A DNA stretch of 64,000 nucleotides from Branchiostoma lanceolatum (lineage: Eukaryota; Chordata; Leptocardii; Amphioxiformes; Branchiostomatidae): assembly GCF_035083965.1 (NCBI RefSeq), contig NC_089739.1, positions 7,800,001 to 7,864,000 on the forward strand, in the 5' to 3' direction. The first letter of the stretch is position 1, and every line of letters begins with the position of its first letter. This document shows, piece after piece, positions 37,646 to 60,879 of the stretch. The position numbers were made by a program, and so were the translations under genes. The notes under the pieces were generated by a model, which ran no database searches, had not been told where the DNA came from, and saw nothing but the letters and a program-made list of their open reading frames with translations.

Positions 37646-37660
37646 CCGCAAGAGGGCGCT
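37646..37660 (+). promoter_or_regulatory. CTCF-like motif in the ACOX1 copy A promoter
   Basis: ccgcaagagggcgct fits the CTCF core (CC.C.AGAGGGCGCT) closely and lies 47 bases before the ATG. Binding is an inference. Confidence 0.4.
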
Positions 37661-37706
37661 ACAGTACAGTGACCTTTTAGCACGAGTGCCCTGACGGCCC
37701 TGAAAG

Positions 37707-40700
37707 ATGGCTGCTAAAATGAATCCAGACCTGAAGAAGGAGAGAGAAGGCGCCAGTTTCGACCCTGAGAAGATCACCAACCTCTTGTACGGCGGTCCAG
37801 ACAGAGTAACAAGCAAGAGAGAACTCGGTGAGAGTTGTTGTACCATTTGTATCGTAAGCTGTCTATGAAAAAGCCTTGTTGTAACGTCAGGGTTGGCAAA
37901 AAGTTGTAAACTTTGTCAGACGGGTGTTTCTTTTATATTGAGGGAATCAACAAGTAAAATGGCATGGAAAATTAAACATAGGCCTCGGTCGAAGTTTTCA
38001 ATTTCTTGTCTTAATTGATACAAGAATAGCCAAGATAAAACCTCCTTGGTAGTGTGTAAGGCCTTACGCAACTTGAATGGCAGGTCAATGTGCTATAGGT
38101 CGTTGACCCCAGTAGGTGCTATATAGTAGCAAGGAGGTTAAAGTAGTAGTATCCGGTATTTTGATTAAAAAAGTCTTATTTTAAAGTCTTATTTTAACCT
38201 CCTTGATAGTAGTGGGCGTGATTGAACATGAGATAATGTTTTAAATTATCTCAATTCTTTTATTCTACATGTATCTCAATATAGAAGTTCAGTTATCAGT
38301 AGGAAAAAGGCACAATTAGATAAAGTACCCCCTTGGTCTGCATGGAGGGACCTGGCAATTCTTGATGATATTAATTATGTACAATTAAAGTGACAAATTA
38401 CTCTTAACCAATTATTTACTGACAAGGCATGTTTTTTTATCAGAGCGTCTGGCCAGGTGAAATAATATACATGTAGCATGCTACGTCTCACAAAAAAAGG
38501 CATGCAGACCTAGCTTCGATTCCAGCCTTCTTAGCTTTAGTCCGCTACCCAAGCTCTGTCCTCGCCAAGTTCTTGGCACGGAGCAGAGCTTGGGTAGCGG
38601 ACTAAAGCTAAGAAGGCTGGACTCCAGGCTAATGCAGACCCTCTATGGAAAGCTGGTACAGAGTACTAGAAAGCATTTTCTTTGCCTGCTTCCCTGTAAA
38701 CAATTTTCAATGCCCCCATTTCTAACTCTACTTTACAACTATGTTTTCCAGAGTCGCTTGCCCTGAATGACCCTGACTACCAACATGAAGACTTGAACTT
38801 TATGTCCAGAGAACAGCAGTATGAGACCCAGCTGAAGAAGAGCATCCTGGTAGTTCAGAAGCAGAAGGAACTTGGGATTGTTGACCAATTTGATTTGCAC
38901 AGCTACAGCTAGTAAGTCTTTATGTTGTTCATTCTATTCCACTGGTTTAATTCAATTGCTTTGATTGACATGTAGCCAAGGCAACTCAGCACTTACTGTG
39001 ATTCACTTTATCTTCATGGTACCAAAATTTCATGGTGTAAGGAAAATGGACATTTTCACTTAAATCAGCAAGTGATCATGAACGAATCATAAATGATAAC
39101 AACAGTTTTTTCACCGTGATGATAATTTCACGGTACAGAGGTGACCGTGAAAACAGTGAACATAAAGTTACAGTGAAAGAAACAAGAATTACAGAAACTA
39201 GCCACAGGTAACCATGGAATTTAAGGGTGTGCCTTTTGAGTTCAAAACAGGTAGAATTTGGCCTTTGAATTGAAAGCTAGGGCGGGTCTCTTCTCTTATT
39301 GGTCAGTGTAGTGGCTTAATGCATCCTATAAAATCCAATGTAATGCATGAAAAGGAGAATTTTTTGCAGTGTTTTTTATGTTTGTGGTTGTAACAATACT
39401 TAAGCACTGAAACACAATATTATTTTGCGGTGTTTTGGTTTCGTGGTCGAGACCATGGCACAAAAATAAAAGCCCATTTCAAGATTTACAGTATTCACTT
39501 CCTTTCCGGCCCCCTTGCAGCAATGGCGTGTTCCAAAGCATGTCAGGACCGTTCGATTTATGACAGCTGATGTTATTTAGCGTTTTATAACTTTGCTTTA
39601 TATATCGTTCCTATCCCCTTTTCTGCAGTGGAGTGTTCAAAATCATGAAAGCATGCCGTTCGAATTATGAGAGCGGACATTATCTAATGTTGTATAACGT
39701 AAGTATTCATTTCCTTTCCTGCCCCCTTGCAGCAATGGCGTGTTCCAAAGCATGTCGGGACCGTTCGGACTCCACACCAGCATGTTCCTCCCCACGCTGC
39801 GAGGGCAGGGGACAGATGAACAGAAAGCAAAATGGCTGAAGATGGCGGAGGAGTACGCTATCATCGGAACATACGCACAGACGGAGATGGGGCACGGTGA
39901 GATATCTTTAAAATGCTGTAGGAGTATCCTCACTAGATACCTTTAAAGACCGCTTGCAGTCAGATGTGCAAAGGATAGGTGTGACAGGTCATTCAGTGTA
40001 ATATAACCAGCTGCTGTGCCGCATTCCTACTGAGGGGCGGTTATATTCCGGCCATACAGATACAGATACAGATGTTTTCAATTTTGGGTTGTGTTTTTGT
40101 TCATTATTTCTCTTATTTCCTTATTGATGACTTTAATATTCGGTTTGCCATTCTGTACAGGGCCTGCCTGTAAAGCTTGAACCCGCCTACCCTGTATAAA
40201 GAAAACAGAAAAAAATAGATAAAGAAATAAATAAACAAATCATAATTTTCATTCCTGCTTGCATCAGGAACTTTCCTCAGAGGCCTGGAGACAACCTCGA
40301 CCTATGACCCTCAGACCCAGGAGTTCATCCTCAACACACCGACCCTCACAGGGACCAAGTGGTGGCCGGGATGCTGTGAGTTTTTGGCAAAGCCTCTGGG
40401 ATGGGGCCTTTTATTTTTATCTCACTCCACCTTTCTAATGAGTCCATGAGGAAGCATTATCATGATATTAACTGTAAATCTTTTGTTGCGGGGACTTGAT
40501 TTGAGGTAGGAGAGAAAAGGACTGGTTTTCATGGTGTTTGATAAGTTTATAGCACATTTTCCCTTACCTTAACCTTCTCCCTTGCTGGGTTAAAGCAAAG
40601 AGAATTTAGGGTCTTTATTGGAAATCAGATTTAGGGATGTAGCTTTAAGTTTAATCTTTTAAGCTGACAGTGGGGAAGACATCTAAGTACTGTATCCTGA

Positions 40701-43486
40701 TGGCCCGGCTGATAATCTGTTCAACTTGTCTTGCTTATGTCTCCTTTAGACTGCCTCCACCCTAAACCTTGTAATCTTTATGTTCTGTCCTTCTCCAGTG
40801 GGGAAGACGTCCAACTACTGTGTCCTGATGGCTCAGCTGTACATCCACGGCAAGTCTTACGGCCCCCATCCCTTCATGGTGCAGATCCGCAGTCTGCAGG
40901 ACCACAAGCCTCTGCCTGGTGAGTTAATGAAGTTGATAGGTTAGCTGGTTAGTTATCAATTAAGCTTCCTCGGGTTCTGATCTTCCAAATACAGGACCCC
41001 AAGCCTCTGCCTGGTGAGTTAAATGAAGTTGATAGGTTAGCTGGTTAGTAATTAATTTAACTTCCTCTGGTTGTGATCTGCCGTATACAGGACCACAAAC
41101 CTGTGCCTGGTAAGTTAATGAAGTTGATCGGTTTTAGCTGGTTAGTTATTAATCAAGCTTCCTCAGGAGCAGATCCGCCGTCTGTAGAACCACAAGCCTC
41201 TGCCTGGTAGGTTGATAAACTTAGCTGGTTAGCAGCTATTGATTAAACTTCCTCAGGTTCTGATCTGCCATCTGGAGGACCACAAGCCTATGTGATATGC
41301 CTGATGGGTTTTGATAGTTTTTACAAGAGTGTCATAGTTTCGTCGTATGTATTGTCACTCACGGTATTTGGTAATGCTGTGGTTGCCCTTTACCTGTACA
41401 GATCTGACAGATAAACAAGTTTAAATGTACAGTCAGGACAGTCACTGGTGAACATTATGTGGCAATATGTGCTATTCGTCTTGGTTATGAATGTCAATGA
41501 GCTTGCCTTGTTCGGCACAAACCAATCAGACAACCTTTTTTTTGTCTCTGATTGGCTGACAGGTTGATAGTGGCCATACCACTAAAAGTAAGACTCTGAG
41601 AGGCCTAAAAACTGTGCAAAAGATATGCAGTGATTTACAAAGTCTGAAAGAAAACAGTGAAGGCTAACTGATTCCACATGATCTGTTGTTGAACGCTAGG
41701 GGTGACAGTTGGTGACATTGGCCCCAAGTTTGGATATCAGGGAAACGACAACGGGTTCCTACGCTTCGACAACGTCAGGATCCCGCGAGACAACATGCTG
41801 ATGAAGTACTCAAGGGTAGGTTTCTTCTTGTTCTTTGTTCAGATACCATTTATGCCGTTAAACCGTGGGGTACTTGTCGAAAAGAGGTAGGGGAATCTTG
41901 CCAGCATAAGAAACCTGTAAAATCTGTCTTCTCTGTCATGACCAGTAAAGAATAGCTCTTCAGTGAGCTAAACTAAATATGTATCATTTTTATCTACTGT
42001 ACTCCCAGGTTGAACCGGACGGTACCTACGTGAAACCGCCCAGCTCCAAACTGGCGTACGGCACCATGGTGAGGGTCAGGTCCATGATCGTCGGCGAGGC
42101 GTCGGAGTCTCTGTCCAAGGCGGTCACCATAGCGATCCGTTACAGCTGTGTTCGTAGACAGTCGGAGATGAAACCGGGGTTAGTAGAACCCTACCGTATC
42201 ACCTATTTCTGTGTTTTTTTCTTGCATGTACGTAATTTCATTATCATTGTTATTTATACAATGCTATTCTCTTATTCATTCTACTTCTGCTTCTGTTAAT
42301 GATTTTCTGCATTTACCTTATTTCACAACGATCTTCGTTTTCCTTTTTAGTCTACCAGTGTCACAGAAAGGCTTACTTTAAAAAACATTGTTTTCCATCA
42401 TATACTTTTTCATCAAAATATTAAACTTGAAATGTTTATATTCTAAATCATCGGTCACTTTTTGCTTGTCATGCAGGTGTCATGTATCCTACCATTTACA
42501 GTTGTACCATTGTCCAAGTTTTCCTTTTTATACTTTCCAACCCTAACTTCCAGCCAACCAGAGCCCCAGGTGTTGGACTATGTGACCCAGCAGTACAAGT
42601 TGTTCCCCTACCTGGCTGCTGCCTACGCCTTCACGTTTGCCTCCCGGACCATGATTTTTGTGTACTTCAGGTCCATGGAGAAGATCAGTCGTGGGGACAT
42701 CACCGTTCTGCCAGAGGTACAAACTGCCTTCATTCAGGAAATAGAGATTTTTAGGAGACTGTTAAGTAAATCTATGCTAAATTAAGTGAGAGAAAAACTT
42801 AATAGCAATTTTAACAGTTTTCAGTGCTTCAAAATAGTTTTCTTTCATGCCTGGTCTGAATAATACTTCATTGTGAATAACATTATTTCATGTGTACATG
42901 TGTTGCTTTTGTCACTATCTGTAATGAGTAAAAGTATTGTGCATATGCAGCTATTGTTTATTCTCTACACTAACAGTCCCAGCTACTGTTTTTGTGGTAG
43001 AGAGAAAGTGGAGTGTTCACGGTGGTTTTAAGTTTGCATTTGAAACAATCAGGATAGTCGGGCAGAAGACCAAACAAGCATTTTTGCAGTGGTTTTAAGT
43101 GGTGGTCTGAGATCACTGCAAAAAAACGCAAACATAAAACTACCGCGAACATAAATGCACCTACAGTAACTGTTGATATTGTGTGGGAAGGCAACTGGCA
43201 AAGGTTTTTATACACCTGTTTTGCCCCCCTTTCACATTTTGATAAATTCAAATAAAAATGAGATTTAAAAATTATTTCCAGCTCCACGCGCTGTCCTCTG
43301 GCCTGAAGTCCCTGTCGTCCTGGGTCATGAATGCTGGGATTGAGGAGTGTCGCATGGCGTGTGGCGGCCACGGCTACTCGCACGCCAGCGGGATCCCCAG
43401 CATCTACATGGAGCACACGCCCGCCGCAACATACGAGGGGGAGAACACAGTACTCATGCTGCAGACTGCAAGGTTGGTCAAGGTTA

Positions 43487-43530
<44 letters not shown>

Positions 43531-46104
43531 TGTGTGTCTGTGTGTGTGTATCATGTATGTGGGTGTGTGACTTTCGTGTGTGTGTTTCTGTTTCTGTGTA
43601 TATCTCTGCATGTGTTGTTTGTATTCACTTGTCAACAGAACTAACTGAAGAAGGTGAACTGATGATTGCATTTCCTCCCCCCAGGTACCTGATGAAGAGT
43701 TATAACCAGTCCCTGCAGGGTGAGAAGCTGGCTGGTTCTGTGGCCTACCTGTCCGGTGTACAGCCGATTCCTGCAGCCGGTAGAACCAGGAACATTCTTG
43801 ACCTTGGGGTCCTGATTGAGGCCTACCAGCACAGGGCAGCCAGGTAGGGAATGTCAAGCTGTTGTTCACCTTGCAAACCCGATTTGAACCTGGGTCTCCC
43901 AGTTATCAACTAATCGGAACCAGGAGCTCAACTGTAAGCAGCTACGAGTTGAGCTACAGGGACATCCCTAGGAAAAGTCATGACTCTATTTTAATGTTTA
44001 TCACAAACAGGTAGACTATCACATGGTTTACACACCACTTCTGTCAGCGGTTGAAGACAGTTCAGACCAGGGATGTCTCCAAGACCCATACCTCTGTCCT
44101 GGGACAAACATTTGCTTGTTGGGACCAAGGAGGTCAACCTCCTTGTTGGGACGGACAAAAATCTCACCCCATCTGTATTTTTGTCAACTTAAAATTACGG
44201 ATTCAACAATGAAAGTTAACAACATAGGCTCCTATACAATGAGTGTGATAGGAAAAAATGTAAGCAACTAAGCATTGTTAAGCAATTCTCAAAATTGTAT
44301 CACTCATGTCCTTTCTACATAAACATATTTCAGTTTAACTTTTCAGTTGAAGAGTGCTGACAAGTACTGTATGTTCTTTTCAGGCTAGTTCATGAGGCCG
44401 CCTTGCAGCTCAGAAATGAAAGGCAGGCTGGGAAGGACCAACCAGATGCCTGGAATGCCGCATCTGTGGATCTTGTCAAGGCAGCCAAGGTTAGAGAACA
44501 CGAGTAACATGAAACATGAACAGTTAAATACTTGATAAGACTTCCTGCATGTTTTATTTCATAATTGCATAGACAATGTATCCAGGGCGTCACATTCATA
44601 CTACATATTAGACTTGGGTGAGTTCGGGTGAAGTGTTTAGGCATACCGTTTGGTAACATTTAGAAATCTACAGACTGGCATTGGATTTTTCAGAGAAGAA
44701 AATGGCAGATAAGCAGATAACCAACAGTTAACCTATTTGTGCTATGACCTGCTTGCTAATCTAAGATAAGGATAAGTTAAACTTGAAAGTTCATCTGCAT
44801 TGGTAAATTGACAATGACTTGATATGTTAAGAATTTGGGTAACTCCAATTTTTAATTACAGAACAACTTTGATCCAGATTAGTATTATGATATTAAGTGC
44901 TGCTCATTTATAAGCAGGGACAAAGGATTTGACTGCAACAGATTTCATCTGAATCATTGGTAATGACTAATTATACATTAATCATTGTCTTGTAACACTC
45001 CTCAGGCCCACAGTCAGTACTTTGTGGTGAAGAACTTTGCAGGGCGGCTGACTGACCCAGCCCTGGACAGCGCAGCGCAAGCTGTCCTGACCAGGCTGTG
45101 TCAGCTGTACGCTCTTCACGGTGTCGTGGACAACTCTGGTGACTTCCTAGAGGTAAAACACTTTCTTTTTTAAAATTAATACATATCTTCACCACCATTG
45201 AACAGGTGTAATTTTAACACCATCTTAATTGGTCATCAATATCAAAGGCTATAGCAATGGAGATTGATGATGAATGGAGATTGACACTGCCCCTGTACAC
45301 CAAAAGGTAGAAGGATTTTAACTAACTTAGTAACTGAACTTAGAGAGCAAAGCATATACTGATATACTGTTTGGTAATGAACAAGACCCATTTTCACACC
45401 TTAGGATGACTACTTGACTGGCACAGACATCCGCCAAGCCAGACGTCACATTAACGCTCTCATGGCCAAGCTCCGTCCTGACGCCGTGGCTCTTGTCGAC
45501 GCCTTCGACTTCCCGGACGGGATCCTGAACTCCGTACTGGGGCGCTACGATGGGAACGTCTACGAACATCTGTTGGAGTGGGCCAAGGCCTCTCCTCTCA
45601 ACAAAACGGATGTGAGTCCAAACAACTGTTAACTTTAAGGTTCCTTGCCAAGCAAATTATCTAGAGTGCTGTAGACCTTTGAACATAAGGGATCTAAATG
45701 GTGCATTAAGTTTGAAAAGTAAGTTCTCCTGTGTATGCTAATGACGCTACTATTATGACTGTAATACAAGAATCACCTTTAAGATTTGAAGCTACCTTAA
45801 GTTAACTTTCTTCCTGTCTCATGTCTCAAGACTACTCCTAGAGAAACAAGACTCTACAAATCTTCTACTTTGTCCCTGATAATGAAATGACTTGTTGGAA
45901 TATGTGGGCTACAAATACAAGTTGTAAAATTCAGTTGAACTGTGCTGTTGATGTTTTGCCAATTGAAAGAGGTACTACATGGTATTACTGTACCAATACA
46001 TGTATCTACATGGATTTGATTTTTGTACATGTTTTCTTCAGGTCCATGAGTCTTACCACAAGTATCTGAAACCCTTCCTGGAGGCCAACAGAGCAAAACT
46101 GTGA
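37707..46104 (+). CDS. ACOX1: Peroxisomal acyl-CoA oxidase 1-like, copy A, complete, 14 exons, 664 aa
   Basis: Exons: 37707-37827, 38752-38911, 39733-39896, 40268-40375, 40799-40918, 41700-41815, 42009-42178, 42554-42716, 43282-43472, 43685-43843, 44384-44489, 45006-45152, 45405-45611, 46042-46104 (1995 nt, phases close). A flavoenzyme that oxidises long-chain acyl-CoA to trans-2-enoyl-CoA with O2, yielding H2O2, the first step of peroxisomal beta-oxidation. [10 protein letters not shown] near the start equals human MNPDLRRERD. Flavin-site blocks are YAQTEMGH (exon 3) and KWWPGC-LGKTSNY (exons 4-5). The catalytic base is E426 in EGENTV (exon 9), and the C-terminus AKL is a PTS1. C184 replaces the second glycine of the usual WWPGGLG. 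Exon 3 acceptor and exon 5 donor regions are locally duplicated in the introns. The ATG at 37719 (MNPDL) is the alternative start. Confidence 0.95.
38130..38205. mobile_element. 76-bp micro-MITE, CAAGGAGGTT ends, 7-bp TSD ATAGTAG
   Basis: Ends CAAGGAGGTTAAA and TTTAACCTCCTTG are exact inverted copies. The element is flanked by ATAGTAG at 38123-38129 and 38206-38212. It lies in intron 1 of ACOX1 A. Confidence 0.8.
38511..38631. mobile_element. 121-bp fold-back element with exact 9-bp TSD ATGCAGACC
   Basis: Long arms share 'agccttcttagctttagtcc' and gctacccaagctc, leaving a short loop. ATGCAGACC flanks at 38502-38510 and 38632-38640. ACOX1 A intron 1. Same family as 19600-19724. Confidence 0.8.
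39500..39732 (+). repeat. Duplicated exon-3 acceptor region of ACOX1 copy A (two degenerate copies)
   Basis: The acceptor plus first 40-70 bases of exon 3 appear three times about 105 bases apart: after 39520 (near-identical for about 40 bases), after 39628 (diverged) and the real exon from 39733. The first copy hits a stop soon after the shared part. The second stays open to a gtaagt donor at 39699, but its 70-nt length would not fit the phase of exon 4. Confidence 0.75.
40890..41300 (+). repeat. Tandem array of the exon-5 end and donor, about 96-bp unit, ACOX1 copy A
   Basis: The exon 5 tail 'gaccacaagcctctgcctg' plus its donor and about 75 intron bases recur at about 41006, 41102, 41199 and 41280. 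Two units (40995-41013 and 41091-41109) have both an acceptor-like atacag and a gtgagt/gtaagt donor and so resemble 19-nt micro-exons. Confidence 0.8.
43489..43549. repeat. (TG)n microsatellite just after exon 9 donor, ACOX1 copy A
   Basis: About 30 TG units with a few TCTG interruptions. Confidence 0.95.
43871..43967 (-). mobile_element. tRNA-derived SINE, ACOX1 copy A intron 10
   Basis: The - strand reads CCTGTAGCTCAACTCG (A box), GAGCTCCTGGTTCCGATTAG and GGTTCAAATC (B box). Same family as 17281-17369. Starts 27 bases after the exon 10 donor. Confidence 0.65.
44126..44145. mobile_element. 20-bp micro-palindrome, CAAGGAGGT ends, 7-bp TSD TTGGGAC
   Basis: CAAGGAGGTCAACCTCCTTG is flanked by TTGGGAC at 44119-44125 and 44146-44152. 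Little more than two abutted ends of the family at 38130 and 59700. ACOX1 A intron 10. Confidence 0.7.
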
Positions 46105-47485
46105 GAACAGTAGCCATCGACTGACCGAGAAAAGGGCAAGATCTTAAAACTGCCATCAAGAGTTAGATGGAAGGACAGTGTTTTATTCCAAAGTAGTCAT
46201 AAGTAATCAAGTCATCAAATACTTGATATTACTACAGTCAAACTTGGATTAAGCAACCAATCAAGGGACTGAGGATGAGAATTACCAACTGTTGCAAAAC
46301 ACATCTGATATATAGATTTTACACCACAGCAAAGATGTTGACTAATGAATTCATGTATGAATGAATAAATAATATATATTATATAATCATAATTATGACA
46401 ATGTGATATCCGTTGTTGTAAAAATTTTGGTGGAAAATTGTATATGGATTCTAATTACCTCTTGAAGATGTTATGAACAGATTATTGTAAAGATTAATGT
46501 GCTAATAATGATTAATAGGAACTTAGTGTCCCTTTTTACACAGACCAATGTTACATGTAACACTATAACGTGATTAAATTGAAAGACTTTCAAGTATTTC
46601 AATCACAATGGATAATAGGTACAGAATGATATAGAAGCTGGTGTATTATTTTTTTATGCCAGAAAGTGATTATTGTCTACAGAATGATACACTGTAGATA
46701 ATGATAACTTCTCAGGACTGATTGGTCCATGCATTGTATAGTCTAAAATGCTTCTAAACACGTAGTTGTTGAGATTATTTTACTTTTTATTCATGATCAT
46801 TTTTAGTTTATCGTTCCCTTCTATGTGCCATTGTCTACATGTAGCCTAGGCCTGGAGTCCAGCTTTGCTAACTTTGGTCCGCTCCCAAAGTGTTGGCGGA
46901 GTAGCAACCAAACCTAACAAGGCTGGAATCCAGACTACCATTGTCTACTTCTCCTGACTATTTTGGTACCACAATAGCTTGGATTTTGTCTGATGAAGCA
47001 AAACATTAAAGTATTGGATCACCAACACCAGGGCTCCTAGTTTTTATGTACATGTACTTTGATCATGCCTCAGGTTGAGATGACAAGCCAAGAATGGTTT
47101 TTAGCTTGGACCTTTCACACATACTTTTCATAGTTTTTCTCAATCTATTATCTAAGGTAGCCAACTACTCTAATTCTTGATTTGTTAACTGTAACTTAAT
47201 TTTAGCAAATTTAACGGTCACTAGTCGACCGCTAAAATTTCATCATCGCTAATATTTGATCACTAATATTTGAGACGACAGTGATGTTTGTTCCCACCGT
47301 TAAAATAAAGTGCTGTGACCTAATCCATTTCCCCCAACCGCTATATTTTCCAGTCGCTATATCAAAGTGATTTACAGTATTGTTTCATAAATTATACAGT
47401 ATATAAAATCATATGCTGTCAATAAATTATAGGATTGCACTTAAACAAACTGTTCCAGTAACATCACAGTTCATTTAGCCTACAT
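46105..47485. other. Convergent intergenic region between ACOX1 copy A and NUDT7
   Basis: ACOX1 A 3' UTR, with an AATAAA at 46364-46369 (260 bases after the stop) as likely polyA signal, then AT-rich spacer holding a fold-back element at 46839-46937. The two genes end tail to tail. No other gene recognised. Confidence 0.6.
46839..46937. mobile_element. Fold-back element, third copy of the TAGCCTGGAGTCC family
   Basis: Arms 'cctggagtccagctttgcta' and 'aacaaggctggaatccagac' are inverted copies, more diverged than in the other two members. The direct repeat ccattgtctac flanks it at 46828-46838 and 46938-46948. Confidence 0.6.
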
Positions 47486-48633
47486 TTACATCTTACTGCT
47501 GTTCCTTGTGGTATACAACTTTCTCCGTGCATCGCGCAAACTTTCTATGTATGAATCTATAGAAATCTCAATATCGAAATCTGGAGTTCTTTCGTAGATC
47601 AAGGCAGCAACCATCATGGCCACCATAGCCGTGAAACCCCATGTGACAAAAGTCTTTCCATTGGTTTTGTACTGGAAGTAGTGAAGTGTTGCAGGAATTC
47701 CTTTCCATGAAATGTCTCCAGCACTATGTCCTTCTGTTTGGAGAAAGTTCTCAAGAGGCATGGTGAAAACATCGGCCACCTCGTTGTTTGGAGTCGGCTG
47801 GAAACTGTCGGGAATGAAACCAATGACCGGTGTTACAAGCATTCCGTCTTTAGCTGGGATAGGAGGTATCCTGGCCAAGACATCAATGTCTTCTGGAGGC
47901 AGTTTGATTTCTTCCTCGGATTCCCTTAAGGCTGTGTGGGTAGAGTCTTTGTCCTCAGGGTCTGTCTTGCCACCTGGGGGATACAAAATAATAACTTAAG
48001 ATGAAATTATCATCATCGGGTTTTTTCTAGAAAAGCAAGGGGGAGCATTACGAGGGAGGGAAGCGACCAAGCGGGGATGAAACCCCCCTTCCATATATAT
48101 AGTGTTTTAGAGTTTAGTCATTCTTTGGCTTCCTGAGGGGCAAAATTACTGTCAGGCAGGTCACAGTTGAAGACTGTGGGCATATATGACCTAGTATCAT
48201 AGCTGAGTCTCGTTGTCGTCTAACGTAATGGAATGAAGAGACTCGGCAGCTATATGATAGATTTGGATACCAGGCAAGATACTTGTAGTGCACACTATAC
48301 AAAACCCAACCAAAGAGTGATCATAATGATGATGATGAAAATGAAGGATGATGTAAAGTGACAGTCTGCGACTTTACCAACCTGAAATGAAGGAAGACAA
48401 CAACAACAAAAATTGTAGTTCTGTTACCATAGCAACGCACCTGGGAAGCACACCTCTCCCTTATGTGACCTGACCTCAGAGGACCGCACAGTCAGGAGGA
48501 CGTGCAGGTCGCCATCTTTGTACAGCAGTGGTACCAGTACCGCCGCAGTACCGAGGGGGTGTCCACGGTACCTGTCACCATCGCTGGTGTTGTACTGCTG
48601 AAGCCTGCTCCTCACTATGTCCTTAGACAGCAT
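47486..48633 (-). CDS. NUDT7: NUDT7-like peroxisomal coenzyme A diphosphatase, complete, 2 exons, 226 aa
   Basis: Exons 48633-48441 and 47973-47486 (681 nt). The CoA-pyrophosphatase signature LLTxRSxxxRxxxGxxxFPGG is fully present across the exon join (residues 46-66). The Nudix box follows at 66-89 with R81-E82 and metal-binding E85-E86, but K88 stands where glycine is usual. After the box, TPVIGFI and EVADVFTMPLENFL match NUDT7. The C-terminus SKM fits a PTS1 variant (NUDT7 in mammals ends SRL). The enzyme splits CoA and acyl-CoA to 3',5'-ADP and (acyl-)phosphopantetheine, tuning the peroxisomal CoA pool used by its ACOX1 neighbours. Start: an in-frame TGA lies 18 bases upstream of this ATG, just after an acceptor (cattacag), so an untranslated upstream exon is likely. 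Only two coding exons, fewer than I recall for mammals. Confidence 0.93.
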
Positions 48634-50049
48634 CTTGGTGAAATGTTCTCACTGTAATGGGTAAAAACATGGGAACAAAGAAAGAAATACAGTTCAGTGC
48701 CAGTAATATCTCATGTAGTCAAATCTGGGCCTGTAAGGCTGTATGAGGGTCCTTTAACAATGCTTTATGTTAAATTCCGGAAGACACGGAAATTTACGGG
48801 GTATATGCAGGCCCCCATGAATGAATATATATATACAACAAGAGGAGGCTGTTTCTATCTTGAAGAAATGGTTCAGAGTGGCTTTCACTTTATAATTGAA
48901 TGAAAGACTATATTTGTTACAGCTAACCTTCTGCCAGTGTCCAACAGTAAATACATATCTTCAATGTGCAAGTTGATAAATACTGATTTAGTCAAGACAT
49001 ACAGCAGAGGAAAAACTCAATAAACTCAAGTTACTCGATCAACTGTAAGGGTAAACTGTGTACCTGGATACCTTTGAAATGGTCCTGCTAAGAGTATATG
49101 CTTAACGTAACGCAGTTCTACAAAACGTAATAGGTCACGTTAATTATTGACCCCTTTCAACGTTATGCAAGGAGGTTTAAATCAAGCATCTAATGTACGT
49201 TACTAGTAGTACCTTTCGGCAAGCTTAGTAACCACTATTCAAACCAAATGATAGGCCGACAGATCAACAACGACAGCAATACACCATATTATAGCGTCAG
49301 CACAAGTATGGTAAAAAAAAAACAGATCACATAACACATTTTCAGAGGCGAAGTACCGGTGCGCTGAAAAATATGGGGAGGGGAGCAAAGTTCGAATTTT
49401 GTTGACCGCACTGTCACGAGATTTTGAAGGTCACTGAGGCAAGACAGCTGTGAGATTAATCTAATCGCGACCTTCTGCTACAATAGAAACACCCTTGAAT
49501 ACAGTATAACACAACGTTACCTTGAAAGATATGGGAGACAACCAGTAAACAGCCATCGGAAGTCTTGTAAATCGCCTTGTATTCAGGAAGCGCCTTTTTC
49601 TCGAGGTAGTTACACAGCTTTCCGCCAGAAGTCGCTGTAGCAGGGTCAAGAAGGGGTCAACATCATCGCGCGAAGCATCGTTTTTAACAGGAAACTTATT
49701 GTGTTTTTTCAAATGAACAATGAAAAGATTAACGACAGTAGATATGGTTACTAACTTTGTGAATTCTAATGATTTCTTTTCCTAATAGCGTTACCTAACG
49801 ACGAAGTTGCAAATGTTGAGAATAACCGTAAGGTCATTGACACAGCCTACAAAAGTCAGTCATATTTGTATGTCTATAATGTGTGACTTTTCCTTTAGAT
49901 TTTGCTGTTGATTTAAATGGGTTTGTTGATGCCGACGGACAGTGATTGGGCTTATTGGTGCGAATTATCATAATTGCTCTTTCCTCTGGTGAACAGAAAT
50001 AACTTAAACTTGGTAGCCTCCATATCAGGCTCTCTGGGCCATCTTTGGG

Positions 50050-50165
50050 GCTTATAATACTTTTTGCTGATGACTTTTCGTACTGGGTCGTTTGTGCAGC
50101 CAGCCCGTAACCATTAGGCCCGGTTCACAATTGCAAAGGACACAGTACAAAAAGTAGTCATCAGC
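50050..50165. mobile_element. Small fold-back element
   Basis: Arms 'cttataatactttttgctga..tactgggtcgtttg' and 'caaaggacacagtac..tagtcatcagcaaaag' are inverted copies with mismatches. Family not assigned. Confidence 0.45.
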
Positions 50166-50216
50166 AAAAGCCCCTCCAAAATACTCTGCTATCTTCTTCT
50201 CGTGTCACCACTTCTG

Positions 50217-50340
50217 CTACACGCTCCCTCTCCAATATTCCGTCACCGCAAGTCCTCTTGGGGTCAGGGCTTCAAGGTCCTCTCTGGTGTACTCTGCTAT
50301 GGAGGCTAGGTACTTGGCGTTGATATGGAACTTGTCACAG
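50217..50340 (-). other. Possible orphan 3'-terminal exon, unrecognised
   Basis: A - strand frame after an acceptor-like ctgtgacaag reads KFHINAKYLASIAEYTRED then LEALTPRGLAVTEYWRGSV and a stop. Its composition looks like real protein, but I do not recognise it. It could be the last exon of a gene whose other parts are lost or distant, or a chance frame. Confidence 0.25.
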
Positions 50341-50944
50341 GTAATATGTGAAGTATGTAACGTTAATAGTATGTCATATGTTAAGTAGGTAGATTCTGAA
50401 GACAAAGAACATGAATCCCCAGCAATGCACTTCAAAAAGCTTTTAATACCATAACTATTTCAGTATTGATTACTGTACATTAGGCAACATTTTGTCAGAA
50501 AACAACATTTGTACAAAATCAAAATATCAAAGTCTTGCAGATTGTTTATACAGATTTTTACATTCTTGATATCTTAAATATTAGTTTGAACATTGTTACT
50601 TGATCACTGGCTTGACGCATGGTCTAAGGTAACATTTGATGCCATCAAAATGCTTCACTACTGTGTTATTGCCCTAATTATCATGACATGCAGATTTCCA
50701 TAGCCAAAACGGGTGTGAACATGAAATGATCTCTATCTGTATATCCAGTATAATTGCCCTTCGGTGTTTAACACCAATTATGCAGGCACGCGGAGCGACA
50801 GCAGCTGGTCATATTACACTGAACGACCTGTCATCTAACTTTGCACAGCTGCAAGTGTTGCTTAAAGCTTTTAATCCACTGTACTTAGTGGTAACAAGTC
50901 CCATGCACTCTACGATAACAACTTAATTCTGGGTTGATAACCTA

Positions 50945-51240
50945 TGATAGCATACAATGATGTAAAATGAGATATGCGCGATTTTGAGGGTCTGGGTCTA
51001 GCAAAAGAATTCTGGAAGCAGCAGTAGCAGTAGAAAATCCGAGTTCATCTGGGAAAAGTTATCAGACGTCTTCACAGCTTGGTCCTGTTGGCTTCAAGGC
51101 ATCATCTAACTGCTAGTACATTTGGTTAGCATTCAATGATCTAAAATTAGATGAGCATGTGTTTTGAGGGTCTGGCCACAGACTGGAAACAGCAGTAGCT
51201 TTACATATGGGGCAACTTTCATCAAGTCTCCCTTGTCATC
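50945..51240 (-). repeat. 177-bp tandem duplication carrying a relic of the last ACOX1 copy B exon
   Basis: 'agacgtcttcacagctt' and nearby words (caatgat.taaaat, gattttgagggtctgg, cagcagtag) occur at offsets of 177 bases. The left copy (about 51064-51099) on the - strand decodes as LEANRTKL and a stop, a decayed echo of the real C-terminus LEANRAKL at 51249-51311. It lies in the copy B 3' UTR. Confidence 0.65.
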
Positions 51241-51248
51241 AGACGTCT

Positions 51249-54200
51249 TCACAGCTTAGCTCTGTTAGCTTCAAGGAACGGCTTCAGGTACTTGTGGTAG
51301 GACTGGTGCACCTGGGGATAAACAGGTATTATAGAATTACAATTTGTAACGTTCGTCACAAGTATTCATGAAAATATGCTGTTGAAAAATTGAATACTAT
51401 TTACTATATAATCGTCAGAGTTGCTTGTTCTGTCAATACAAGTTCATATATATATATTTCACTCGAAATCTTTTTCATCTGAAAAAAATCTAAAAATAGA
51501 TACTTTTGAAGTAGTGCGGGCCAAAATGGGAATAACGTCTAGTGGACACGTGTGCTAGGCAACCCTATACCAAGTTTCAGGTCGTTTAAGTTGAATACCA
51601 GGCCACAGGAGCCAAAATCAATTTGTTTGTACTCACATCTGTTTTGTTGAGAGGAGAGGCCTTGGCCCACTCCAACAGATGTTCGTAGACGTTCCCATCG
51701 TAGCGCCCCAGCACGGACTTCAGGATCCCGTCCGGGAAGTCGAAGGCGTCGACAAGAGCCACGGCGTCAGGACGGAGCTTGGCCATGAGGGCGTTGATGT
51801 GACGTCTGGCTTGGCGGACGTCTGTACCGGTCAAGTAGCCAGCCTGAGAAAGAGTGAGTGAACATTAAGGTCTGCAAGGAACAGGCGACACTATAATCTG
51901 GAAAAGCACTCTAAATCCGGAAAACTAATTAATGTGACATACTTTAAGAAGGAAACTTAATATTCTCGAATATGACTCAGTACATGGTAACAATCACGTA
52001 ACGTTACATGTAGGTAGCATCGATAGGGGAGTAGGTCAGTTCTGCAGAATTCTGAATTTGGATGCAGAATTCTTTACAGTATTCTGTAATTGTGCAGAAT
52101 TCAGCAAGTCATCTGCAGAATTCTGCAAGCCATTGGCTATTTGGTCTATGCGGACAGGTGGTCACTAAAGACAGGATTCTAAATGATTTTGTCTATGGGA
52201 AAATTATTTAAGGGCTTAGGTAACACAAAAAAGCGGTCACAAAGACCAATTGGTCCTTATGTAGGGATGGTAACTTGTACAGGTTTGACTGCATATCCTA
52301 CCTCCAGAAAGTCACCACTGTTGTTCACCAGTCCATGTAGAGCGTGCAGCTGACACAGCCTGGTCAGGACGTCAGAGATGGAGCTGTCCAGTGTGGAGTC
52401 TGTCAGCCTCTCCGCAAAGTTCTTCACCACAAAGTACTGGCTGTGGGCCTGGAAACATAAACGATCAAACTTCTGCAAGGTCCTTACTTCGTCTTATAAT
52501 TCTAAACTTAAATGCAAAGTTGGAACATTTACACACCCATCTATTCATCTACTTACTTAGTGTTCATAAGTTGATAGTTTTGATAGTTTTTGCATGGAGA
52601 AGTAGTTCTTCAATGAGTTTTGATAGAGATTCTCTTACCATAGCAGCCTTGACGAGATCCACAGATGCTGCATTCCAGGCGTCAGGTTGGTCCTTCCCAG
52701 CCTGCCTTTCATTTCTCAGCTGCACAGCAGCCTCGTGCACAAGTCTGTAAAAAAGAATGAGAAGACAAAATGTCATCAAATTTCTTGACTGTTTAATTTC
52801 TCTTCATCATCATCGTCATCATCATCATCACCATTAGTACTTTCAGCAAAAACAAAGGAATTGCAGTCTTTTTACTCTTAGAGAGATAGACTGCACCCAA
52901 GAATGTGACAGAAGACACAGCAACTTGATTTTCAAGTAAATTAATTTTCAATCCCTACCTAGCTGCCCTGTGCCTGTAGGCATCACACAGAACCCCCAGA
53001 TCCAGCATGTTCCTGGTTCTACCGGCTGCAGGAACCGGCTGTACACCGGACAGGTACGCCACAGAACCAGCCAGCTTCTCACCCTGCAGGGACTGGTTAT
53101 AACTCTTCATCAGGTACCTGGGGGGAGGAAAATAATCTGTGTCAGACGTTATGTACATCTAGTACTATTCCTGAAAAGGGTCCAAGTGTTGGTTGAAAAT
53201 TCAATGATTTTACATCTATTTGAACAAAAGATCAAGATTGTAGTAAAAGATTTACACGTTATTTCAGTACACAATACAGTCTTCTAACCCTCCTAGATTT
53301 GAACATTTTCAACCTGAGAATTCGAAGAGGTCGGAGGATCGAGGACTGACCAACATTTTGGTGGTGAGTGCTGTATAAAGTGTATGGAAATAACGTATAA
53401 AACATTTACTACGTCGATCACCGTCACAAATGAACCTTCATACGAATAGAACAAGATTGTGTTGTAGTATTTAGCATCAGTATAGAGAGAATATATCAAT
53501 TGGTTATTGTGTGGGTCAAGTTACCAACAGCATAGAGCTAACCTTGCTGTTTGGAGCATCATGACGGTGTTCTCTCCCTCGTAAGTTGCTCCAGGAGTCA
53601 TGTTGGCGTACAGACGGGGCAGCCCGCTGGCGTGAGAGTACCCATGTCCTCCACATGCCATCCTGCACTCCTCCATTCCCACATTCGCCACCCATGACGA
53701 CAGCGCTTTCAGCCCGGCAGAAAGGGCGTGAAGCTGCAGAAAAACGAGAGATTCAGGCATGGAATTTTTTCAAGACCTCATGTAGTAATGCTACTTACTA
53801 CCTAATCATAACTTATCACCATACAGTAATGATCATATGTTACAGCTTTTGACCTTATTTCAGACTTTTTACTTTTTTACGGCTCTTGGTGGTAAATTTG
53901 CAGATATTTTGCACATTCCAAACAAAAATGATTGGTTTGTGAACAAATGCATTCTTTATATCAGTTTAGATTAGGGCGGTGGATGAGGGATAAATTTTGT
54001 TTACTAGCAGATACAGGTCTGGACCTGGATATAAATTCATTACCTTGTACAAACTAAAGCACTATCAAATATGACTTTAAACCACTGGACCAGTACCTGA
54101 ACCTGATTCTGTGTTAGGTATGCAGCCCATGTTTACATAATTTCAGGTATACCATGGTGCTGTTCAGAACTAGGGTGAGCAGTTTTCAGTACTACCTCAG

Positions 54201-57200
54201 GTAGGACGCTGATGTCTCCCTTAGAAATCTGGCTGGAAGACGTGGTGTAAACGGACATCATGGTTTGTCCTGTCAGCCAGAAGGCGTAGGCAGCAGCCAG
54301 GTAGGGGAACAACTTGTACTGCTGGGTCACATAGTCCAGCACCTGGGGCTCTGGGTGGCTGGGAGTGCGAGATTTGACCATTCAATGGCTTATATATGAA
54401 ATTAGATGATATTGTATATGGGTTTAATGATGCGATTTATCTTATACAATCTAAAGGGATATTAGCATTTCCAACAAGTGGTTGTGATCTTCTTTGTTTT
54501 AAATTTATATGGCCCAATCATTTAATAATGCGTTACGTCGATGAAAGTTAGATATCCAGGTAATAAGATACACAAAAGTAACTGGATGGATCTTTTAAAA
54601 TCTATCCAGTTGCATAAGGAACTTACCAACATTGTTACCGATGCTGGGATATTTCAGAAATGACACAATTTCCAACCATCCAGTTCTTTTCTTCTCATTA
54701 TAAGTACATGTAATTTTTTTAGAAGACATTGAAGTTTTGGCAGTGCAAATATCTTGTTCTTTCAACTCGCTCTTTTAGACTCTCAATTGTCGGGTTCATT
54801 TTTCCAACAAACTAACACGACTAAACTCACCCCGGTTTCATCTCGGACTGTCGGCGAACACAGCTGTAGCGAGTTGCTATGGTAACAGCCTTTGCGAGGA
54901 CCCTGCCAGAGTTCACGACAATGTTTGCTCTCACTTGCACCATGGTGCCGTAAGCCAGTTTGGTACTCGGCGGCTTCACGTACGTACCGTCTGGCTCAAC
55001 CTAAAACATAGGCAAAACCTTGATCTTTAACAGTCAACAAACTTGGTCTCAACAATAAAATTTGGGGTAGTCCAATTTTTGTGTTACCAATTTGCAGTTC
55101 ATCTTTCATTCAGAATGACTTCTGCGAACACAGATGAGCTTTCAATTTAACCACTCAATGGACTGAGAAGAAAATTGGGATTGGGGGTGGTTACTCCAGA
55201 CAAGAGGGTCTTAACTATGGGAATTTGGGCAAGACCGTTTAAATGTGGCCTATGACTGGAGATGGCTGGCTACACCTTGTAGTTGACCTGCCAGTTTAAC
55301 TGCAGTTTGACAGTTTTTCTCAAGACGTAAATAAGTCTGTTACATTTGAATACTTCATGTACGTGCCAGCTGGCTCAACCTGAAGAATAGACGCAGAATG
55401 AATTTCAATATCTGCAGTGAATATGTTAAACAGAAGAAAAATATGGAGACATGAGAAACGAAAACTTTAATATGCAGCTTACCTTTACCCGTCAACAGGA
55501 TTTAATATCGTTTTTCAACAAAATGTGACCGATGAATATTCCAGCACCCGACATTACGTCTTTAACCTAGCTATACATTCCCTATCACAGTTTTCACAAG
55601 GATGGTCAGCAATAAGACGACAAACTTACCTTTGAGTACTTCATGAGCATGTTCTCTCGAGGGATCCTGACGTTGTTGAACGCCAGGAAGCCGTTGTCAA
55701 CAGAACCATACCCAAACTTGGGGCCGATGTCACCAACGGTCACTCCTACAAACGACATGACCACAAGGAAAATTGGTCATCATCACACTTTTGTAACACT
55801 CCTCCTCTGCCATATATGCCAGCATGTATAGCTCTATTTGGAGTTGCCAGTATTTAGAATTCAGCAGGTATGTAGCTCTATGACTGGCTAACTCTTCTGG
55901 AAAATTATTCAGCCTATTGAATTACAGATAAACAAAGTTTAACAAACAAATAAATAAACTCACCAGGTAGCGGCTTGTGGTCCTGCAGACTGCGGATCTG
56001 CACCATGAAGGGATGGGGGCCGTAAGACTTGCCGTGGATGTACAGCTGAGCCATCAGGACACAGTAGTTGGACGTCTTTCCCACTGGAGAAGATCATAGC
56101 ATAAAATGTTATGGACTCACAAGTGAGTTTTACGTATGTTCAAAGCTCATATGTTAGTGGCGTCGTGTGGCGTAACGGCTAGAACATTCGGCCATCAAAC
56201 AAGGGAACCCGAGTTCGAACCCTACTTCCCCGGCCCAGACATGTCTGGACATGCGCCCGGAAGTTGTGCCCTTGGGAAAGGCACTTAACACAAATTTCCT
56301 CACTTCACTCAGGTGTAAATGACTACCTAGCTCCGGTTAGGGACGTCCCTCGGATAGGACTTTAAATTGAGGTCCCGTATCTGGGGAGAGCCACGCCCCG
56401 CGCACGTTAAAGAACCCACCACACCTTTCGAAAAATAGTAGGGGCATGCCCCGTGTGCGATGGTCCAAACCTTACAGTCTGGTCTGGGCTGACATCCCGT
56501 AGGTAACCCGTACCCCTACTCATCTCGATAAGTGTGTTGGGTTCTTTTATCAGCAGAGGTTTAATTTGACGCTTGAGGCTAATGCTTGATATATGAAGCT
56601 CCCACATACACGGGGCCGCTGGCTTTACGTCCCCAAGTACTAATGCAACCCCTGACACTATGCCTGAGTGGGGTACAACAACTGTGGTGGGAAAAGACTA
56701 AATCTTACGTCCTCCAGGCCACCACTTGTACGCTGTGATCGTCGGTGTGTTGATGACAAACTCCTGGGTGGTGGGGTCATAGGTCGCCGTTGTTTCCAGG
56801 CCTCGGAGGAAGGTTCCTGGCAAGATGGGTGATAGAACATAGTATACAATAAATACTTTATTTCTGTTCTTTTACATTTTCTTGGAAGATTTTGGGAAAC
56901 TTTGCTCATGACTCGAAATACATTTTGTGCAACATGTAAGTTTGCGACGAAATCCGTACGTTTTACGAGAGGAAAAGAGGCATTTTATACGATGAAGGTT
57001 AGACATCCAGGTAATAAGATACGCAAAAAATAGTTACTCAAGCAACTGGATAACATTTTGAAACAGTCAGACGTTTCAGACAGCATCCGCTTTCGTCAGT
57101 GACCACGGAAAGATCTGGCAGAACCAGGTTTTATACCAAAGCTCAGGCATTTTATGTTTATTATTACGTTTTCCCACATCTACTGCAATTAATGGCATAT

Positions 57201-59676
57201 ATTTGCTCATATCTTTCGTTTTCAAATGGAGGAAAGTTGATGCGCGCAGATGATACATGCATAATCAAGTCACTGTGTAATTTATATATAACGTATAAGT
57301 CGTTCTGTAAGGTCTTCTGCAGCCTATCACTTATCTTGCATGCAATATTAAGGTGAAGTACGGAAAGTCCTCTTTTATCTTATAGATTCCCCTGCAACCT
57401 GTATGAATTATTCAGAGCATCTCTCACCATGTCCCATCTCAGTCTGAGCGTATGTGCCAATAATGGCGTATTTTTCCGCCATCTTTAGCCACTTGTCCTT
57501 CTGTTCTTGTGTAGCCTGTCCGTACAGGGTGGGGAGAAACATTGCTACGTGTAGACCGAAGGAAAATGAATCCGACCCCGAGACAGCGCTGAATGGGGGA
57601 TAGGAAAAAAACTAAGAACGCTCACTTAGTTTTGAACAACATGTAATCCTTTTTTCTACTAAATAAACATCTAATCCTATTCGTGTTGGTAGAAGAAGTG
57701 AGAAAGCTATTTTTTTGGATCATAGTTACATGTTGAGATCATTGTTTATTGTCGAGTTTTTGATCGTAGATATAGCCTGGGTGCCACCCTAGTTAGTTTA
57801 CCAGGGCTCCCACACTCAAACTCTCAAACAAACTAGTTTGTAAGGAAGAGTGATTATAAGGGAGCCCCACCTAAATGGCGCATTGATGAAAAAATCCTGA
57901 AGGCAAAAGGAACTAGACAGGAAACATTTGCAAGCAAATACTTTATGTTACCTTCACATGGTCTAGCCTTGCAAACTACTGCTATGTTTACTATTACAAA
58001 CCGTGACATTCATATATTAGCTGACCAGCCCTCCATCTCTGTCCTGCCACTTGCTACATAATGCAATCAATTTTTCTTATTACTCTTATGTTGCTTCTTG
58101 TTTGTTACGGGGGAGACAAATAGTAGAGGTGAGAGATCACCTATTTTGTCTCTTCCTCCATTTTTGTAAATGGAGGAGTCTGATAAAGAAACAAATAAAC
58201 ACCACCGGGTGTCTGCTACTTTGCCAGTAACCATAGTGACGGCCGTCTGGCCCAGGTCATTGACCTTATTTGTTTAGAACGGAAAAAGAAGAAGAGGAAG
58301 AGAAAGGAAGGAAAAACAACATGTTTCACTTCTGTGAAGGAAAACATAATAATGAGAAATTGCTGATACACAAACCTAACCTTGTGTAGAAGGACCGATC
58401 TTGCACATCAGTGATCTTCAGTTTCTCACCCTTGGTCACCATCAGGATGCTCTTCTTCATCTGGGTCTCATACTGCTGTTCTCGCGACAGGAAGTTCAAG
58501 TCTTCACTTTGGAAGTCGGGGTCATTCAGGACAAGGGACTCTAGTAGATAAGACGGAGTCAAGTGAACGGTTTCTCAATCATTTCATGTTACAAGATGAT
58601 GCAAGAATTTACAAAGCCTCGAGATAATTCATGAATGTATGGGGTCTCCGAACCATTCTTAAGTCGTGTTTGCCTATATAATCAATACTGGTCTTTTCAG
58701 GACTCGCGTGTGATGTTGATTTTTTATTAACGTTATTAATCAGGGGGAAAAATACACAACAATCAATCTATCAATCAGTCAAGAATGCAGGTTACGTTAT
58801 ATGCAGGCATTATATTTGGATGATACTGGACAAATACAATTGGATTTGACATTGATTTACTACGTGGAACTGTACTTTGACCTGGCCTACGTGTAACGGT
58901 ACATGTAAAAAAATAACCTTCTTGACGAAGGTAACTAGTTCCGTTTAGGATAGTGTAAAATATCGGCAATCTAAAAGTTTATTTTAGCCGCCAGTCTTAA
59001 ACAGGACAAGATATTCTATAGCTTCCTAAGCCCTAAATGATAAGCAAGTTTTATGGCCATCATGGAATAAGTGCACAGGGACATTTTCTGCTTACAATCT
59101 TGCACCAGACAAGGTTAGACAAACAACTGTATCATGATAATCTGTTGTAACGTCAAACCACTTGCGGTGTTGTGCCGTTGCTGAAGCGGTAGAGTGGTGT
59201 TTGGCCCGTAGAGTGGTGTCCTGGGTTCAAATCCCCCGATATGCCACCCATGTTGTGCCATTGGGAAATGCACTTAACACGACTTTCCTCACTCCACCAA
59301 GGTGTAAAATTGGGTATCTGACTTCGGTTAGGGGGGTATAATGTGGTGGAGGGAGAGGGTCGGGCTCCGCCCTCCCCCGTGCCCTATACGCAACCCGCTG
59401 CCCCTAAGACCTGAGAAAATGCTATGGGATTACCTTTACCTTTTTAAACCACTTAACCATTGATCATAGTCGGACCAAGGAGGTTTTATGGACCTCTTTC
59501 TACGGATACGTTTGGCGGTTAAGCGAATCTGCCCTACAACATAATTTAGCCTCACCTAGTTCCCTCTTCCTCTTCACTACTCCCGGACCGCCGTACAGGA
59601 AGTTTGTGATCTTCTCTGGGTGGAAACTGGCGTTTTCTCGCTCCTTCCGCAAGTCTGGGTTCACCGTGCCCGCCAT
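51249..59676 (-). CDS. ACOX1: Peroxisomal acyl-CoA oxidase 1-like, copy B, complete, 14 exons, 663 aa
   Basis: Exons in transcript order: 59676-59556, 58540-58381, 57588-57428, 56816-56709, 56083-55964, 55745-55630, 55000-54831, 54358-54196, 53733-53543, 53117-52959, 52744-52639, 52448-52302, 51843-51637, 51311-51249 (1992 nt, phases close). Same intron positions and phases as copy A; exon 3 is one codon shorter. The start is [18 protein letters not shown]. The flavin motif is the normal WWPGG-LGKTSNY, catalytic glutamate is in EGENTV, and the C-terminus AKL is a PTS1. Exon 7 departs from the family in [19 protein letters not shown], where most members have GEA before the helix. Exons 2, 3, 7 and 8 differ much from copy A while exon 5 is almost identical. 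A micro-palindrome sits 24 bases upstream of the ATG. Confidence 0.95.
54549..54610 (+). repeat. Partial copy of the dispersed 'ccaggtaataagatacg' repeat
   Basis: Shares 'tccaggtaataagatac' and aagtaactggat with 56998-57060. In ACOX1 B intron 7. Confidence 0.45.
56155..56660. mobile_element. tRNA-derived SINE (+) joined to an inverted second fragment, ACOX1 copy B intron 4
   Basis: The forward part has A-box-like TGGCGTAACGGC, B box GAGTTCGAACCC, then 'cttgggaaaggcacttaaca' and a 3' part with 'aaagaacccaccacacct' and agtaggggcatgcc. From about 56490 the same 3' words run in the opposite direction ('gtgtgttgggttctttta', then gacgcttgaggc), so the two copies meet end to end. Confidence 0.65.
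56998..57110 (+). repeat. Dispersed repeat, best copy
   Basis: 'ttagacatccaggtaataag', ctcaagcaactggataa, 'gtttcagacagcatccgc' and tttcgtcagtgacc. Relatives at 20990, 24150 (inverted) and 54549. Confidence 0.5.
59165..59460 (+). mobile_element. tRNA-derived SINE, ACOX1 copy B intron 1
   Basis: tRNA-like head ttgctgaagcggtagagtgg, B box GGGTTCAAATCCC, then the linker 'ttgggaaatgcacttaacac' shared with 56155, ending in tacctttaccttt. Confidence 0.6.
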
Positions 59677-59699
59677 CTTGGTATACTGGTAAGTGTGGG

Positions 59700-59727
59700 C
59701 AAGGAGGTTATATATATAACCTCCTTG
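59700..59727. mobile_element. 28-bp perfect palindrome, CAAGGAGGTT ends, 7-bp TSD GTGTGGG
   Basis: CAAGGAGGTTATAT plus its exact inverse, flanked by GTGTGGG at 59693-59699 and 59728-59734. It starts 24 bases upstream of the copy B ATG, so it is in the 5' UTR or core promoter and brings a TATATATA core. Confidence 0.8.
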
Positions 59728-60879
59728 GTGTGGGCAAGGGTCATGGTCATGCCCGCTAGGTCAATAACCCCACGGACCTAAAAGGGTAACGTCCGCTAGC
59801 TCAACGACCTTGTGGCCTTACAAGTTTTAAAGTTTATTGCAAATACATAACCGAGTACAAACAACACAAATAATGATGATAATTACAATGATATTAAGGG
59901 CTACATCCAACAATTATGCTACGTTCTAAAATGTACATGGTGCTAGTTTTGTTGGGTATGACTACTTCTTTAGGAGGCGGTGGAAGACGAAGTTACAAGG
60001 GTCGTGGCCGCTAGGGCAATGACCCCGGATTGACGCCTTCGGGTCGCGGACGCTAGGATAATGACTTGACGGACTTAATTAACCGTTAACACAAGCCAAT
60101 GTCACTTGTATGTTACCCATAGTCTTGCTACCTACCACTATAACTAGTGCAAATACTCGCTTGGTAACACCGTAGTAAATTAATTAGCATGACCTTGGTA
60201 ATTGACCTCTTTGTTAGGTCTGTGATGTGTTGTGAACGCAAACGCGCTTTGGTGCGAGTAATTTTTTTGCCGTGTGCATTCAGTACAAGTAACCTGAAAT
60301 GTACATTTCCAGCATTGAGCGAAGTCTTCCAAAGTCAAAGCAGATGTGCAACAATGTTAACAAAAGCAAAATAGACTTAAGTAAAGACGACTTAAAATTC
60401 ACGTAATATCGTAATGGTGGTTTAAATCTGAAGTTTTATTTCAAAGCCTAAAACTAAGGTTTAATTCCATACCATTACAGTACATCGTTTTACATGCTAA
60501 AATAAATAACGTTAGAATAGGTTCTACTGACCAAAGACGAAATTTACGGTAAGGTTGGCGTGTTACTACATGTATAAACAAGAGTTTGGAGACCTCCATG
60601 AAAAAATTTCGAGCCTTTGTAGATTTATTGTTTTATCTTGTCTCATTGATTATACAAATAAGACTGTAATTAGCATACTCTATTTTAAATGATGGTCTCG
60701 TAACACAATTGCACATATTGTATGTGTGAAAGTCATTTCTTTGGGCAGCATACCATGTTTACATTTCATCATAAATTATACAAAATAAAAACAAATGACA
60801 CATTTACATAATATATACATAGTGGTGTATACCTTCAACTAACATACCGGTACACATGTTACAAGTATGTAATTCTCAC

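Follow-up and report, generated by a model that had tools for sequence, protein, structure and literature searches.

An unusual feature of P transposase is that it cuts one strand at a point 17 bp into the element (PMC7776569), and P excision leaves donor DNA ends that carry 17-nt tails of the element, which on being joined can form palindromes between the target-site duplications (TSDs), as set out in the passages of PMC2895639 drawn on here. In Table 1 of that study, the join CATGATGAAATAAC(AT)GTTATTTCATCATG, that is, 14+(AT)+14 between intact duplications, is recorded for 14 isolates, from a genotype in which 68 junctions were sequenced, and joins with 1-3 added bases were also found; the same table gives 18 isolates (14 and 4) with long-microhomology joins that kept little of the ends, so that palindromes make up only part of P footprints. 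The palindromic junctions that were measured come from Rad51-deficient flies, and how common they are in a natural germline is therefore uncertain; in wild-type flies, most P excision products reflect repair synthesis followed by joining (PMC2895639).

P ends begin with CA (PMC2895639). Within the P superfamily, 7 bp is the modal TSD length of 1360, at 274 of 279 insertions (table in PMC3276498), and the TSDs of Galileo are mostly 7 bp as well (PMC4168063, PMC2775673); hobo (hAT), hopper (Transib), pogo and the S-element (Tc1) have TSDs of 8, 5, 2 and 2 bp, respectively (PMC3276498). The literature passages on this 7-bp branch of the superfamily do not show a long stagger, and the titles and abstract openings among the matches listed describe no natural footprints with 7-bp duplications, which is no proof of absence.

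Here we describe three short inserts that share an end sequence, each flanked by a 7-bp direct repeat, in a 64,000-nucleotide stretch of Branchiostoma lanceolatum DNA (the window). The window has a eukaryotic appearance, with coding stretches that are split into exons, and between positions 37700 and 63999 it contains three copies of an acyl-CoA oxidase (ACOX) gene in mixed orientation. The features discussed below are as follows.

About 37.7-46.1 kb, plus strand: ACOX copy A
38039-38048, minus strand: single end CAAGGAGGTTTTAT, in intron 1 of ACOX copy A
38123-38129, no strand assigned: left TSD of the 76-bp insert, ATAGTAG, 7 bp, letter-exact
38130-38205, no strand assigned: 76-bp insert with 13-bp inverted ends CAAGGAGGTTAAA
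38206-38212, no strand assigned: right TSD of the 76-bp insert, ATAGTAG, 7 bp, letter-exact
44119-44125, no strand assigned: left TSD of the 20-bp insert, TTGGGAC, 7 bp, letter-exact
44126-44145, no strand assigned: 20-bp insert CAAGGAGGTC/AACCTCCTTG, 10 bp from each element end, mismatched at one base where they join
44146-44152, no strand assigned: right TSD of the 20-bp insert, TTGGGAC, 7 bp, letter-exact
49168-49177, plus strand: single end CAAGGAGGTTTAAAT, between ACOX copies A and B
About 59.7-51.2 kb, minus strand: ACOX copy B
59476-59485, plus strand: single end CAAGGAGGTTTTAT, in intron 1 of ACOX copy B
59693-59699, no strand assigned: left TSD of the 28-bp insert, GTGTGGG, 7 bp, letter-exact
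59700-59727, no strand assigned: 28-bp insert, perfect palindrome CAAGGAGGTTATAT/ATATAACCTCCTTG, 14+14 bp of element ends
59728-59734, no strand assigned: right TSD of the 28-bp insert, GTGTGGG, 7 bp, letter-exact
From the window end to about 61.5 kb, minus strand: ACOX copy C

In ACOX copy A, the 76-bp insert sits in the first intron, flanked by exons 1 and 2, and the 20-bp insert in a later one, flanked by conserved stretches at 43671-43853 and 44374-44498; the 28-bp insert is found just upstream of where the coding exons of copy B (minus strand) begin. Exon stretches of the ACOX copies are up to 97% alike. Between two of the copies there is also a Nudix open reading frame (47486-47995, minus strand), the best solved relatives of which are Nudix hydrolase 11 and the peroxisomal CoA diphosphatase NUDT7; it and the ACOX copies are adjoining genes with a likely role in peroxisomal CoA metabolism.

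With their duplications included, the three structures span 38123-38212 (76-bp insert), 44119-44152 (20-bp insert) and 59693-59734 (28-bp insert), and the perfect flanking repeats that the original prediction had reported for these three elements are exact to the letter. Its further statement that the inverted ends are exact stands for two of the elements, over 10 bp or more, but not fully for 44126-44145, where the ends are exact over only 9 bp and the tenth base of the left arm is C instead of T, the arm reading CAAGGAGGTC. The 20- and 28-bp inserts were rightly described as nearly all end, consisting of 10+10 and 14+14 bp. The interior of the 76-bp insert comprises 50 AT-rich bp, in which a 13-bp unit, AAAGTCTTATTTT, is repeated in tandem, head to tail, adjoining the right end. 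The duplication around the 28-bp insert is composed of G and T only. At the 20-bp insert, the direct repeat amounts to 11 bp (CTTGTTGGGAC, 44115-44125 and 44142-44152) when the last four bases of the element are counted, and we take these four extra bases inside the insert to be a coincidence.

The end shared by the elements is CAAGGAGGTT, and the inverted pairs end in CAAGGAGGT(T); written as a pattern, the pair is CAAGGAGGTTWW on the left and WWAACCTCCTTG on the right. The bases 3' of the 10-mer are W-W-A in all six ends long enough to include them (AAA, AAA, ATA, TTA, TAA and TTA, with the two arms at 38130 tallied separately, 59700 as one entry and both arms at 44126 too short), and W occupies the next base in five of the six. 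The element end is about 13-14 bp long, CAAGGAGGTTWWAW. The single ends that the original prediction had noted near 38041, 49168 and 59474 lie at 38039-38048 (minus strand), 49168-49177 (plus strand) and 59476-59485 (plus strand). A search via their flanking 7-mers returned no partner for any of these three; a decayed right end near 59490, considered by eye as the partner of the single end at 59476, gave a poor duplication. A 16-mer containing a transposon-like end, ATAAAACCTCCTTGGT, occurs in the first intron of both ACOX copy A and copy B (38035-38050 and 59474-59489, plus and minus strand), and it may derive from gene duplication rather than from two insertions.

Counting both strands, the window contains the exact 10-mer eight times, whereas 60 order-3 Markov windows held 0.18 copies on average and never more than 2. 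Among the 56 inverted pairs of the window (arms of at least 9 bp, span of at most 100 bp, arms not extendable outward), three are abutted by a 7-bp direct repeat and the other 53 by 0-2 bp; lowering the arm minimum to 8 bp raises the number of pairs to 139, in which the same three have 7 bp, a single further pair has 5 bp and the repeats of the remaining 135 measure 0-3 bp. Short palindromes with an abutting repeat (arms of at least 8 bp, loop of at most 14 bp, repeat of at least 6 bp) occur in the window only at 44126 and 59700, and each of 15 order-3 Markov windows contained zero. As an outside control, we took 66 CAAGGAGGT...ACCTCCTTG pairs (50 distinct) with an inner distance of at most 30, of which 36 came from IMG/VR viral contigs and 30 from GTDB bacterial and archaeal genomes, the GTDB pairs being defined with 10-bp ends; a flanking repeat of more than 2 bp was present in none. 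In such genomes, AAGGAGGT resembles a ribosome-binding site, a resemblance that has no bearing on this window. From the pair statistics and the outside control, we take the duplications to be genuine, with a length of 7 bp, and hence to indicate insertion. Insertion at the three sites is well supported, and the transposon origin with 7-bp TSDs, as it had first been proposed, is supported as well.

Other inverted structures were observed in the window. At 25800-25827, a 28-bp inverted pair, TGTTCATT...AATGAACA, has an abutting 5-bp direct repeat, AGTGG. Near-palindromes of about 120-210 bp, 69-89% self-inverse, lie at 38511-38631, 19600-19724, 7635-7845, 32811-32940 and 37019-37146, those at 19600-19724 and 38511-38631 being about 77% alike; they may form a foldback or MITE family that has no connection with the elements with 7-bp TSDs.

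As regards superfamily, the duplications are exactly 7 bp at all three pairs, which agrees with the 7- or 8-bp TSDs of the P superfamily and departs from the 8-bp duplication of hAT. The element ends start with CA (CAAGGAGGTT), as those of P and zebrafish Pdre2 do (PMC2895639, PMC10983969); this is a weak marker. The ends of hAT elements also start with CA, and CA/TG ends are not unique to P. Compared with GTANTAC, the published target motif of Galileo, the three TSDs match at 9 of 18 positions (P=0.022, with random 7-mers of the window as the reference), and the TSDs together with the flanks of the single ends match at 17 of 36 (P=0.004); for GTCNGAC, which is the P motif as we shortened it to 7 bp, the corresponding values are 9/18 (P=0.013) and 17/36 (P=0.0016). 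The target preference of the three sites is weakly P-like, and it is not P-specific, because hobo (hAT) also prefers GT...AC targets (PMC3276498). In the three reconstructed empty sites, there was no clear signal of a palindrome extending beyond the duplication.

The original prediction had named a P-like element as one possibility, and the 7-bp TSDs, which are typical of 1360 and Galileo (PMC3276498, PMC4168063, PMC2775673), both of the P superfamily, favour that guess. ATAGTAG, the TSD of the 76-bp insert, is one base off the Galileo flank ATAGTAC (PMC2775673). The comparison with 1360 and Galileo is drawn by TSD and flank only, and the literature passages do not describe the excision products of these elements. 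Zebrafish Pdre2, a P-like element, is similar in its short inverted ends beginning with CA (13 bp), but it has an 8-bp TSD, a length of about 1.1 kb and a different end sequence (PMC10983969).

An autonomous partner with the same ends and a transposase, as had been envisaged, did not emerge from the regions of the window that were scanned. Six-frame translations of 37001-51999 and 49001-63999 (12 translations, E 0.001) contained no transposase domain, nor did 10 of the 68 listed open reading frames (nine from the first 37 kb and the Nudix frame). When ends with at most 3 mismatches each were paired within 12 kb, with an exact 7- or 8-bp duplication demanded, only the three pairs were returned and no longer one. 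For the end 10-mer on either strand, the titles and abstract openings among the literature matches listed contained no such transposon; combined with 'transposable element', the 10-mer led, among the matches listed, only to bacterial conjugative and retrotransposable elements and to a cacao gene family.

We consider it probable, from the arrangement of ends and duplications, that the structures are excision scars of a P-like transposon, with 38130-38205 an internally deleted or filled remnant. A cut-and-paste transposon resembling those of the P superfamily, with ends CAAGGAGGTTWWA, would have inserted at the three sites with 7-bp TSDs and would later have departed from 44126 and 59700. Its transposase would make one of its strand cuts deep within the element end (17 nt in P), such that each donor side would keep a single-stranded tail of the element end beside the TSD; joining of the tails would then yield a short sequence between two intact TSDs, palindromic because the two ends are inverted copies of one another. 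At 59700, such a join would account for the 14+14 bp, in which the central AT run can self-pair, and at 44126 for the 10+10 bp, in which a single base is odd where the arms meet. The 76-bp copy at 38130 would belong to the same family and have undergone internal deletion or fill-in, and the single ends may be sites that lost one side.

Several observations bear on this proposal. At two of the three sites, 44126 and 59700, the kept end lengths of 10 and 14 are shorter than the 17-nt stagger of P; the 76-bp site at 38130 is too long for a simple tail join, and a search of its own flanks for a template of the 76-bp interior gave no significant filler match (478 of 2,000 shuffles were as good). 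The copies share their ends only and differ in their interiors, which suits separate repair events and not the copying of one miniature element. When the 28-bp insert and one duplication are deleted, the alignment to ACOX copy A gains slightly (179.5, versus 176.0 undeleted), this deletion ranking third among 285 of equal size, with the best (180.5) elsewhere; at 44126, the intron alignment of the paralogues is too poor for a judgement. A clear empty site did not come out of these comparisons of the ACOX copies. Counting against P excision, the evidence base is three sites, all within one 22-kb stretch.

The structures resemble the Drosophila P footprints of PMC2895639 (Tables 1-3) in having intact TSDs around an end-derived palindrome, the join of which contains few odd bases or none. 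They differ in that P has an 8-bp TSD and another end sequence, whereas the TSD here is 7 bp, and in that those footprints were laboratory-made in Rad51-deficient flies (PMC2895639), whereas here the genome is a natural one and we infer excision from form, together with the parent element and its superfamily. The match of the palindromes to the P junction form, the unlike interiors and the size limits of P-MITEs, considered below, lead us to take the 20- and 28-bp structures as excision scars.

A different route to the same remains, which we regard as unlikely, is that internal deletion or abortive gap repair, and not tail joining, stripped transposons of this or another superfamily down to their ends. 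The 76-bp copy resembles an internal deletion, and CA/TG ends, being found outside P, leave room for another superfamily. The similar GT...AC preference of hobo (PMC3276498) and the prevalence in wild-type flies of incomplete repair synthesis followed by joining (PMC2895639) fit this account too; however, the TSDs of hobo, hopper, pogo and the S-element, at 8, 5, 2 and 2 bp, are not 7 bp (PMC3276498), and random deletion endpoints should rarely come to lie symmetrically at two sites out of three, about 10 and 14 bp in from either end.

The original prediction had seen in the inserts a new micro-MITE family, that is, true non-autonomous elements of 20-76 bp mobilised in trans by a P-like transposase. 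Although matching inverted ends and intact 7-bp duplications are present at all three sites, we find this very improbable: the three copies have three different lengths (20, 28 and 76 bp) and unlike interiors, sharing the end only, whereas the copies of a MITE family share their interiors. The P-MITEs of Anopheles gambiae are comparable in being non-autonomous, with P-type ends and perfect duplications, but they form consensus families of 205-2450 bp with 8-bp duplications (PMC1562414). In D. melanogaster, the P element cannot do with less than 138 and 216 bp of its ends, although the same study argues from the P-MITEs that about 100 bp of each end may suffice in Anopheles (PMC1562414). Pairing by a transposase of two ends 20 bp apart would, we reason, be impossible. 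Slightly less probable still is the narrower proposition that the 20- and 28-bp palindromes are self-standing mobile units, the ends of which a P-like transposase acting in trans would pair across only 20 bp. Were that true, they would perhaps be the smallest transposons on record, to our knowledge.

That no transposon was involved, and that the structures are local palindromes, regulatory motifs or products of repeat slippage in a duplicated gene cluster, is highly improbable: all three sites do lie in or beside duplicated ACOX genes, the end-bearing 16-mer does recur in intron 1 of both copies A and B (38035-38050 and 59474-59489) and the repeat at 44126 does reach 11 bp when element bases are counted, but one would not then expect the same end to be abutted by 7-bp repeats that are perfect and differ among the three sites, when the remaining 53 of the 56 pairs have only 0-2 bp.

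Collectively, we conclude that all three structures are real, transposon-derived and probably a known kind of trace, namely P-type excision footprints, and that the three inserts are most likely scars of longer P-like elements, and not record-small transposons. If this is right, the element family leaves a readable record of its excision, and genome-wide counts of duplication-palindrome-duplication scars would indicate how frequently a P-like transposon has departed, as opposed to arriving. With nothing but sequence, the longest kept ends would set a minimum for the stagger of the transposase cut in the 7-bp branch of the superfamily. The finding would also serve as a warning that repeat-finding pipelines may take excision scars for miniature transposons.
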